A DNA stretch of 64,000 bases from positions 3,720,001 to 3,784,000 of the forward strand of contig NZ_CP108549.1 in NCBI RefSeq assembly GCF_036010325.1, in the 5' to 3' direction. This stretch comes from Streptomyces sp. NBC_01210. Lineage in GTDB: Bacteria > Actinomycetota > Actinomycetes > Streptomycetales > Streptomycetaceae. Numbering within the stretch: position 1 is the first letter of the stretch; the number at the start of each line of letters is the position of its first letter. Position numbers and translations under genes: made by a program. Shown in pieces: positions 4,876-6,428 of this stretch. Under the pieces are notes generated by a model. It made no database searches and was not told the DNA's origin. It saw only the letters and a program-made list of their open reading frames with translations.

Positions 4876-5139
4876 TCAGACGGCGGCCTTCTTCAGCCTG
4901 CGGCGTTCGCGTTCGGACAGGCCGCCCCAGATACCGAATCGCTCGTCGTTGGCGAGGGCGTACTCGAGACATTCGGGGCGGACCTCGCAGGCAAGGCAGA
5001 CCTTCTTGGCCTCGCGGGTGGATCCGCCCTTCTCAGGGAAGAAGGACTCGGGGTCGGTCTGGGCGCACAACGCGCGCTCCTGCCAGCCGAGTTCCTCGTC
5101 CGCGTCCTCGACCAGCAGTTGTTCGAACAGCTCGGTCAT
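4876..5139 (-). CDS. whiB: WhiB iron-sulfur developmental transcription factor
   Basis: An 87-residue protein, the usual length of Streptomyces WhiB. The [4Fe-4S] ligands are C25, C48, C51 and C57, followed by the turn GIWGGL at 69-74 and a basic ERRRLKK tail that contacts DNA. Known role: with WhiA, WhiB switches on septation genes for sporulation; it is the counterpart of WhiB2 (Rv3260c) in mycobacteria. The start at 5139 has GAGGGG upstream; the frame continues to 5205, but those extra residues are not part of the conserved protein. It is transcribed away from the cysteine dioxygenase, leaving a long shared upstream region. Confidence 0.97.
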   Translation of the reverse strand: MTELFEQLLVEDADEELGWQERALCAQTDPESFFPEKGGSTREAKKVCLACEVRPECLEYALANDERFGIWGGLSERERRRLKKAAV

Positions 5140-5560
5140 GTGCGCCCCTCGTCTGTTTTTGCGTCCCCGTGATGTTGCCGGTGTCGCTTTTCGGCCGAAC
5201 GACACGAGTGAAATTACAAGTGCGGTGCTCCAAGCCAGTCAAGCCGAGATCTGCTATTGGGCCCGGTATTCACTCTGGGGAACCAAAGCTTTGCGGAAAG
5301 TGTTCAAATCATGAGAAACCTGACACATGCCAGCGGCCTGCCCCGCACTCCCCCTCTCACACAGAGAAGACGTGGCTGGGATCGATCTTGTTGCCCATCG
5401 AGCCACTGAAGCGATCCGGATCACAGTCCGATCACGGGACCGCAACGGCGTTTGTCAGCGCGGTTGCTGCGCCATGTCTCCGCGGTCGCGGCTGCACAAA
5501 CCTTTCTCCGCAGCCAGTAACCGGATGAGGTGAAACATTACCGCCAAATCGGTCATCGAG
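5140..5560. other. Long whiB upstream region, no gene seen
   Basis: About 420 bp with no convincing coding frame on either strand. It is less GC-rich than its surroundings and probably holds the whiB promoters. Two GACAC pentamers (near 5201 and 5319) resemble the core of the WhiA recognition motif. This is only a five-base match and weak evidence. Confidence 0.45.
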
Positions 5561-5589
5561 TTGACAGTATTGGACCCACCCGTCACCTT
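5561..5589 (+). promoter_or_regulatory. Candidate promoter of the leader peptide and cysteine dioxygenase
   Basis: A consensus -35 box TTGACA (5561-5566) is followed after 17 bp by CACCTT (5584-5589), an acceptable -10 for a housekeeping sigma factor. The leader ATG begins 7 nt after the -10, so the leader would be leaderless or nearly so. Confidence 0.5.
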
Positions 5590-5596
5590 TGATTGC

Positions 5597-5683
5597 ATGC
5601 CAGTGACCTCAGCGCCCTTCGCAACCCCCACCCGTGGGTTCCGCAGCGCTGTCCAGGCTCGCTGTTGCTGTTCCAGCTGTTGA
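5597..5683 (+). CDS. Candidate cysteine-codon leader peptide (28 aa)
   Basis: A short frame of 28 codons ends in R-C-C-C-S-S-C-stop, so four of the last six sense codons are Cys (TGT/TGC). It lies 108 bp upstream of a cysteine dioxygenase-type gene, directly after a good TTGACA promoter. Short Cys-rich uORFs that act as cysteine attenuators are known in actinobacteria, notably mycobacteria. GTTCC within the Cys codons (5670-5674) can pair with GGAAC overlapping the downstream ribosome binding site (5777-5781). A regulatory role is inferred. A frame on the opposite strand also crosses this region but lacks supporting features. Confidence 0.6.
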   Translation: MPVTSAPFATPTRGFRSAVQARCCCSSC

Positions 5684-5791
5684 TGCCGTAGCGCTCCAGC
5701 TTCACCACCGCGTACAGCTCATCGCCGTATGCACCGCATGTACTGCGACACCCCTGCACTGCACGTTCTCTGCCGAGGAACCACCGCACCC

Positions 5792-6292
5792 ATGAACAGC
5801 GACAGCGACCTCCAGATCGCCGGCGACATCCTCGCCGTACAGCACCTGCTCCAGCCCGCCCGTGAGCACCCGGCCACCGTCGCCGACTTCGTCGGCCTGG
5901 CCCGCTCCATCGCCGCCGACCGCGCGCAGTGGGCCCACCTCGTCCAGTACGACACCACCACCCGCTGGTACCACCGGCTGCGCACCGGTCCGGGCTACGA
6001 GGTGTGGCTGCTGTCCTGGGTCCCGGGGCAGGGCAGCGGGCTGCACGACCACGGACTGTCCTCCGGTGTGCTGACCGTCCTCGACGGCGAGCTCACCGAG
6101 CGCACCGCAGACACCTCCCGGTCCCTGTCGGCCGGCGCGCAGCGGGTGTTCGCGCCCGGATATGTGCACGAGGTGGTCAATGACTCGCTCGAGCCTGCGG
6201 TCAGCCTGCACATCTACTACCCGGGTCTGACCGATATGCCGATGCACAGCTCCCAGTGCTCCCCGGCCGAACGGGATGTCGTAGCCGCCTGA
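5792..6292 (+). CDS. Cysteine dioxygenase-family cupin protein
   Basis: A 166-residue single-domain cupin of the type I cysteine dioxygenase family. These enzymes oxidise L-cysteine to cysteine sulfinate with a mononuclear non-haem iron. Likely iron ligands are the two His of GLHDHGLSSG (about residues 86-90) and the His of GYVHEVVN (about 130). The ATG at 5792 has GAGGAA 11 nt upstream; an in-frame ATG at 5729 lacks a ribosome site. The upstream Cys-rich leader supports a cysteine-related substrate, but thiol dioxygenases of this family also use related thiols such as 3-mercaptopropionate. Confidence 0.8.
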   Translation: MNSDSDLQIAGDILAVQHLLQPAREHPATVADFVGLARSIAADRAQWAHLVQYDTTTRWYHRLRTGPGYEVWLLSWVPGQGSGLHDHGLSSGVLTVLDGELTERTADTSRSLSAGAQRVFAPGYVHEVVNDSLEPAVSLHIYYPGLTDMPMHSSQCSPAERDVVAA

Positions 6293-6302
6293 CCACCACC
6301 GG

Positions 6303-6428
6303 GATCAAGCTCCGCCTGACAGTCCCGCCCTTCGCCCGACCACCACCCCTCATGAGATCAGGCTCCGCCTGACAGTCCCGCCCGTCGCCCGACCACCACC
6401 CCTCATGGGATCAGGCTCCGCCTGACAG
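6303..6428. repeat. 53-bp tandem repeat with hairpins before fbiA
   Basis: Copies start at 6303, 6356 and 6409; the first two are full 53-bp units and the third is partial. Each contains the palindrome TCAGGCTCCGCCTGA (the first copy has one change), a 6-bp stem with a 3-nt loop. The last copy runs into a second small palindrome, GACAGACTGTC, ending a few bases before the fbiA ATG. It may terminate cysteine dioxygenase transcription or tune fbiA. Confidence 0.85.

Follow-up and report, generated by a model that had tools for sequence, protein, structure and literature searches.

A conserved cysteine-codon upstream open reading frame with predicted pairing to the start of a cysteine dioxygenase-type gene in Streptomyces

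Introduction

Why would a short upstream open reading frame (uORF) that ends in cysteine codons stand ahead of a gene whose product would consume cysteine, and by what route might it act on that gene? The locus that raises this question lies in Streptomyces sp. NBC_01210 (assembly GCF_036010325.1, contig NZ_CP108549.1, positions 3,720,001 to 3,784,000 of the forward strand), in a stretch of 64,000 nucleotides (nt) referred to here, at its full length, as the window, where a 28-codon uORF precedes a gene for a cysteine dioxygenase (CDO)-type enzyme. We think it reasonably likely that this uORF controls translation of the enzyme in cis, as a cysteine-responsive attenuator opened by ribosomes that stall for want of cysteine.

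Results

A cysteine-codon uORF is conserved ahead of the CDO-type gene

The first-pass annotation of the window had described a 28-codon frame ending R-C-C-C-S-S-C-stop, 108 bp before a CDO-type gene and directly after TTGACA-N17-CACCTT, and both parts of this description were confirmed. The uORF (peptide MPVTSAPFATPTRGFRSAVQARCCCSSC, with the tail R-C-C-C-S-S-C) runs on the + strand from an ATG at 5597 to a TGA ending at 5683, leaving a gap of 108 nt up to the CDO ATG (5792). TTGACA (5561-5566) is followed after 17 nt by CACCTT (5584-5589) and, after a further 7 nt, by the uORF ATG.

5561..5589, + strand: promoter, with TTGACA (-35), a 17-nt spacer and CACCTT at the -10 position; TTGACA spacing conserved
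5597..5683, + strand: uORF of 28 codons with C-terminal Cys codons, probably leaderless; frame read from the sequence
5792..6292, + strand: CDO-type thiol dioxygenase gene, 166 aa (PF05995)

A CDO match was present in 61 of 61 Streptomyces genomes searched. Under a strict rule (an ATG uORF having three or more Cys among its last 14 codons, with TTGACA at a distance of exactly 36 or 37 nt upstream), the arrangement stands before CDO at 56 of 59 loci in a first Streptomyces set, from which genomes G008 and G050 were left out for their weak or partial CDO matches, and at 80 of 80 loci in a second set, five of which overlap the first. The three first-set loci without it are L054, L058 and L059, the last of which reads N. 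For 16 other genera of the family, which we take to be Streptomycetaceae, 51 genomes were searched and 40 loci taken (11 were not), 39 of them with enough upstream DNA (L104 had too little); the strict rule is satisfied at 34 of these 39 loci, and a looser family rule (TTGAC[AT] at 35-38 nt, ATG or GTG, three Cys within the last 16 codons) at 37, with L072 and L095 lacking a uORF. At least one locus in each of the 16 genera has the arrangement, which hence occurs in all 17 sampled genera of the family. The terminal Cys codons, which the first-pass annotation had singled out for comparison among relatives, are thus kept, and this conservation supports its suggestion that the uORF is likely to act in cis on the CDO-type gene. 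CDO relatives were also found in 43 genomes outside the genus at class level; the TTGACA-leaderless Cys-tail uORF was seen at none of 19 class-level CDO loci (L109-L127, 38-48% identity; L116 has only 17 nt upstream), two of which (L122 and L125) have Cys-tail ORFs overlapping start regions.

Outside the Cys cluster the uORF peptide is highly variable, and its length ranges from 19 to 51 codons (L053, a 19-codon uORF ending in R, was excluded from the alignments, and L106 and L108 are one place). The pattern TGYTGYTGY-N6-TGYTGA has only three matches in the whole 9.2-Mb genome, compared with one for a reversed-pattern control. Because this pattern is rare genome-wide and the arrangement is conserved in both genus and family, the arrangement is not attributable to chance.

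The downstream protein matches PF05995 (CDO_I) with an E of 4.8e-22 and 78.7 bits (cut-off 23). H85, H87, H126, H140 and Y142 are kept in 106-108 of 108 CDO relatives and R62 in 100 of 108, all residues that we take to belong to the active site. The nearest solved structures bear the name cysteine dioxygenase, at low similarity (best 44.8 bits). By its profile score and presumed active-site residues the protein is a cysteine dioxygenase of type I, with cysteine as its putative substrate.

Since TTGACA sits 36 nt upstream of the uORF ATG, the transcript would probably begin at or near this ATG, leaving the uORF leaderless; an SD (Shine-Dalgarno)-like sequence precedes the uORF start in just 1 of 178 loci. 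The weak point of this promoter is CACCTT, which does not fit the TAnnnT consensus, and a sigma-70 scan of the locus found no site. Across the -10 region (window 5580-5591) of the 178 loci, G at -15 and T at -8 from the uORF start each occur in 95%, again a misfit to TAnnnT. These conserved positions possibly reflect another sigma factor or an activator.

The Cys codons are predicted to pair with the CDO start

Folding of 5597-5811 placed a 15-bp helix, 5659-5673 with 5794-5808, in the minimum-energy structure (z -2.94; 0 of 200 shuffles as stable).

5659..5673, + strand: sequestering strand, Arg-Cys-Cys-Cys-Ser codons (minimum-energy fold, recoding controls, pairing location)
5794..5808, + strand: sequestered strand, the G of the start codon and CDO codons 2-6, AAC AGC GAC AGC GA (minimum-energy fold, recoding, pairing location)

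At 132 of 138 Streptomyces loci, the 30-nt segment with the greatest complementarity to the final 45 nt of the uORF sits at the CDO start, where the complementarity score averages 30.9, against about 13-15 over the spacer and 15-19 from +10 to +30. In 104 of 136 Streptomyces loci the real stem scored higher than every one of 30 synonymous recodings that leave the peptide unchanged. Taken as models, these folds predict, in Streptomyces, base pairing between the uORF RNA and the region where translation of the downstream gene begins. Among 25 deviant CDO starts, own uORFs were slightly ahead of others (10.88 vs 9.94 bp). Duplexes computed over long stretches were of little help, and scored -43.5 for own and -44.1 for swapped partners in Streptomyces (p 1.0), and -39.2 vs -37.5 in the other set (p 0.003), these duplexes being full of interior loops.

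The first-pass annotation had placed the pairing elsewhere, between GTTCC in the Cys codons and GGAAC at the ribosome site of the enzyme.

5775..5779, + strand: Shine-Dalgarno GAGGA of the CDO gene (from sequence; GAGGA-type in most Streptomyces loci)

Both strings do exist (5670-5674 and 5777-5781), but their pairing is not predicted here: the mean probability of SD pairing with the Cys-codon region was 0.003 over 61 Streptomyces loci and 0.00 at the window locus, in an ensemble computation that included 20 nt of CDO coding sequence (L063 and L093, in which no SD was found, were excluded). GTTCC:GGAAC was rejected as the switch, with ensemble pairing near 0 in Streptomyces and comparisons of own with swapped SD duplexes giving p 0.13 in the 61 Streptomyces loci and 0.10 in 37 other loci. 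These 37, which also served in the recoding, ribosome-opening and cross-stop pairing tests, comprise 36 from other genera plus L106, a divergent Streptomyces. Seven loci from a single other genus (L067, L070, L071, L073, L074, L076 and L077) do have the SD as a clear partner of the Cys codons, with matched changes on both sides, GUUCCU:AGGAAC or GUCCCU:AGGGAC. The idea that GGTTCC lies in different reading frames in two clades was also rejected, as the frame is identical.

Ribosome position on the uORF alters the computed cost of opening the CDO start

Averaged over 133 loci, opening the CDO start was computed to cost 15.5 kcal/mol with no ribosome, 9.4 with a ribosome stalled at the first clustered Cys codon (Cys1), 11.0 with one at the uORF stop and 15.9 with one further upstream (L045, L167 and L220, whose start is not ATGAA, were excluded from this and the covariation tests). 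A ribosome on the Cys codons is thereby computed to free the CDO start by about 6 kcal/mol, and the Cys1 stall opens it better than the stop-codon ribosome by more than 1 kcal in 61 of the 133 loci. When uORFs were recoded synonymously (69 of 138 loci tested), the closed cost was 9.5 kcal, compared with 15.4 for the real sequences, and the relief 1.1 compared with 6.2; the real relief lay above all eight recodings in 48 of the 69 loci. Since recoding loses most of this closure and relief, sequestration appears to be written largely into synonymous codon choice. The NBC_01210 cysA leader, the one other leader compared, behaved similarly, at 13.7 closed and 9.1 with the ribosome at the last Cys codon, but 13.6 at the first.

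Codon choice and two flanking hairpins point to constraint on the RNA

The uORF Cys codons are TGT in 217 of 283 cases and, for the 80-locus set, 330 of 427, as against 14 of 101 in long window ORFs. At one Ala position of the uORF, GCT is used by 125 of 128 loci (those among 141 Streptomyces loci whose peptide fits the motif), as against 40 of 1358 Ala codons of window ORFs. The constraint on the uORF acts on RNA as well as codons. Three further features surround the sequestering strand.

5623..5640, + strand: hairpin H1, within the uORF and 5' of its Cys codons (5623-5627 with 5636-5640; covariation)
5675..5701, + strand: hairpin P1 across the uORF stop codon (5675-5679 with 5697-5701; covariation)
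5684..5791, + strand: C-rich spacer, 46 C and 23 G of 108 nt (base count)

In an alignment of 75 of the 88 distinct sequences, 91.0% of H1 cells are paired, with 45 double-change cells compared to 12.5 in shuffles and a covariation score reached by 0 of 500 shuffles. The 13 sequences omitted from this alignment (five for shifted loops or form, eight for list length) were included in an alignment-free count of all 88, which gave 87.7% paired and 52 double changes against 13.5 (0 of 500 shuffles). The H1 motif is missing in seven loci and is weaker (5 bp) in the window itself. For P1, 92.7% of cells are paired over 55 Streptomyces loci; its covariation score was reached by 0 of 500 shuffles, and six double-change cells compare with 1.2 expected (1 of 500). 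Because the shuffles ignore the relatedness of the sequences, the H1 and P1 counts are support rather than proof. Windowed folding energies dip at both hairpins in Streptomyces; in other genera H1 is weaker and the dip near the uORF stop is present. The spacer has a C excess, (C-G)/(C+G), averaging 0.33 with a minimum of 0.11 over 177 loci.

Sulfur genes of the same genome and published expression of the CDO counterpart

In the NBC_01210 genome the gene order is Zincin_1 (PF06262, presumably the former DUF1025) at G000:C1:3719051, a 525-aa ORF (minus), a 1270-aa ORF (minus), whiB and CDO. Published work links SCO3031 (DUF1025) and whiB (SCO3034) (PMC4255298). By gene order, counted on inspection, we assign SCO3035 as the putative Streptomyces coelicolor counterpart of the CDO gene. 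In S. coelicolor exposed to H2O2, SCO3035 ('hypothetical protein') went up 6.54-fold (PMC4991794, Table 1), together with SCO6094-6102 (ssu and cys, including cysI), SCO4164 (cysA), SCO2910-2912 (the cysM operon) and metN/metI, and the induction of SCO3035 and these genes was lost in the hbpS-senS-senR mutant (PMC4991794). These data agree with a logic in which CDO is on when cysteine is short, without proving it. Diamide is reported to induce cysI, cysA and cysM regardless of ndgR, and other factors were suggested (PMC4340878).

Cys-containing uORFs also precede cysA and cysI in the NBC_01210 genome (L271, reverse complement 2093-2173, and L272, reverse complement 2277-2360, in that order as listed). 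Both leaders score above the cut-off of NF042934; against NF042933 (Ms5788A) the one before cysA falls slightly short, at 43.6 bits (cut-off 45). The metNIQ leader, MTRTSSRTLATEAITTPGARCMCRMCAN (L269, reverse strand 2030-2116), a relative of S. lividans metL, keeps C-M-C-R-M-C as that leader does and has no NCBIfam match; it may sense cysteine, not methionine. No uORF with at least two Cys in its last 12 codons was found at the mec-cysO-cysM operon, which is co-induced in the published data.

On the other side of the uORF from CDO lies a WhiB gene (minus strand, ORF 4876-5205, probable start 5139, PF02467), and WhiB is present at 136 of 137 loci checked. The CDO gene is followed by cofD (PF01933), and a 53-bp tandem repeat of 2.4 copies occupies window 6303-6428 between the two.

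Relation to known cysteine leaders

Leaderless polycysteine uORFs that act by cis attenuation were described in mycobacteria as Ms5788A and Ms4527A (Canestrari et al. 2020; PMC9031893, PMC9094748, PMC13236596), and translation attenuation is described in general terms as pairing of uORF RNA with the downstream initiation region (PMC13236596). With a 3'-end Cys cluster and a short frame that is probably leaderless, the window uORF would group with such polycysteine attenuators. It resembles Ms5788A and Ms4527A in these respects and in the proposed cis control of a downstream gene by attenuation, and differs in its target, a cysteine dioxygenase, and in its predicted partner, the target's start codon and first codons. 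Compared with the models NF042933 (Ms5788A), NF042936 (Ms4527A) and NF042934 at E up to 10, neither the window uORF nor four CDO-locus relatives gave a match; the window uORF matches no NCBIfam or Pfam model, and Rfam returned only two matches below the gathering score, which we attribute to chance. The NBC_01210 leaders of cysI and cysA are likewise short Cys-containing uORFs before sulfur genes, but each has two Cys and an R-R-x-V-D-L-x-R motif that the CDO uORF lacks.

Seliverstov et al. (2005, PMC1262725) described Cys-run leader peptides of cys operons for Mycobacterium, P. acnes and B. longum cbs; these share Cys-codon runs near the stop and no evident terminator, but have other targets, and the word 'dioxygenase' is absent from the available text of that paper. 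The S. lividans metL leader of metNIQ is also leaderless, with C-M-C-R-R-M-C near its end, but differs in target and sequence and is placed among methionine leaders (PMC8079986), in whose leader table, as available, eight leaders appear and none for cysteine or CDO. No paper on the CDO uORF case was found among the matches listed in open-licence papers, available in part. We therefore rate the kind of element as already known, and as new its target, its sequence family and its predicted partner strand at the start codon.

TnaC, the leader peptide of the tryptophanase operon, likewise precedes a gene for the catabolism of the amino acid concerned. The CDO uORF differs from it in showing no evidence here of nascent-peptide arrest or Rho control. 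The tna system is named in the available text of PMC1262725.

Discussion

The Cys codons match the CDO start, recoding largely removes the predicted sequestration, and a ribosome placed on those codons is computed to relieve it; we favor an attenuator that is on when charged tRNA-Cys is short. Translation of the uORF would begin at the extreme 5' end of the mRNA. With no ribosome on its end, the Cys codons are predicted from folding to pair with the CDO start codon and codons 2-6, blocking initiation. When charged tRNA-Cys is scarce, a ribosome would stall on the Cys codons and mask the sequestering strand, and the computed opening cost suggests that the CDO start would then be freed. H1, behind the ribosome, and P1, over the stop codon, would flank the helix and probably time or stiffen the switch. 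CDO output is predicted to go up along with the cysteine-biosynthesis genes. The first-pass annotation had inferred a reverse logic for a cysteine-consuming enzyme; folding and published co-induction together favor this biosynthetic-attenuator polarity, which would make the target, not the switch, the odd part.

Several observations weigh against this proposal. The start helix, whose two strands hardly vary, lacks significant covariation (pairing is equal or better in 490 of 500 shuffles), and its longest stem is hardly longer with the own uORF than with a swapped one (12.32 vs 12.26 bp, 84 sequences). Not every locus has its best-scoring stem over the start codon; 93 of 136 do. In one Streptomyces clade (L031, L032, L036, L042, L043 and L107) the Cys uORF is intact while the CDO N-terminus or start has changed and the start helix is mostly lost; stem scores there equal, or barely exceed, those of foreign uORFs. 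Outside Streptomyces, a helix at the start codon is the exception: just 4 of the 37 other loci beat all recodings, the Cys1 stall gives relief of more than 2 kcal in only 12 of them, and pairing across the uORF stop is no better than in shuffled spacers (5.11 vs 4.95 nt). At the window locus itself, one of eight recodings gave equal relief. The site likewise opens under a ribosome placed at the stop codon, whose advantage over the Cys1 stall exceeds 1 kcal in 31 of the 133 loci, the window locus among them (7.1 compared with 8.9 kcal); folding alone therefore leaves the polarity unfixed. Finally, the induction of SCO3035 may be transcriptional, via SenR, the stress was H2O2 and not cysteine starvation, and it is physiologically odd for a cysteine-consuming enzyme to be on when cysteine is short.

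The same attenuator might run with the opposite polarity, ample cysteine letting ribosomes reach the stop codon, where they would hold the sequestering strand and P1 open and turn CDO on, a catabolic logic like that of TnaC. This would suit the expected physiology of a cysteine-degrading enzyme, and it draws on the fall in opening cost from 15.5 to 11.0 kcal with a stop-codon ribosome, which does better than the Cys1 stall at the window locus among others; yet the Cys1 stall is superior in about twice as many loci (61 vs 31), a stalled ribosome would hold the strand longer than a passing one, and SCO3035 goes up together with cysteine-biosynthesis genes, so that we regard this polarity as unlikely. 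Control might instead be transcriptional, with the C-rich spacer as a Rho loading site or P1 as a terminator, and ribosome position on the uORF setting premature termination. The C excess of the spacer (given here without a background comparison), the covariation of P1, the mRNA level at which SCO3035 changes, and the suggestion of Rho for mycobacterial cys leaders (Seliverstov 2005, PMC1262725, in the text available) all fit such a scheme. It leaves the match between Cys codons and CDO start unexplained, however, and no intrinsic terminator was found between uORF and CDO on the + strand of 5150-5810, the sole terminator-like site there being on the minus strand (5333-5320); we consider it distinctly improbable.

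A functional small Cys-rich peptide, with the pairing incidental, would account for the Cys clusters kept by one or more loci in every one of the 16 other genera, but the wide variation of the remaining peptide in sequence and length and the constraint on synonymous sites, seen in the GCT codon for Ala and the TGT-rich Cys codons, make this explanation very hard to sustain. A chance ORF with chance complementarity could appeal to the shortness of the frame and to the similar triplet composition of start and Cys codons; contradicted by the conservation and by the recoding and location controls, it is scarcely credible.

Returning to the attenuator that opens on cysteine shortage, its companions in the genome raise a broader idea, which we advance only tentatively and hold to be doubtful as yet: that Streptomyces has a cysteine-uORF regulon comprising cysI, cysA, metNIQ and, surprisingly, CDO, in which Cys-codon stalling, and not only a transcription factor, yields joint induction under thiol or peroxide stress. 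If true, such a regulon would help explain the NdgR-independent response to diamide, and a cysteine-oxidising enzyme would sit within the cysteine-starvation response, which would imply a role in sulfur or redox balance and not in the disposal of excess cysteine. The arrangement at CDO occurs throughout the sampled genera of the family, yet its uORF matches none of the leader models used in NCBI's annotation. If the attenuator operates as proposed, a cysteine-consuming enzyme would be under a sensor known from cysteine-making genes.
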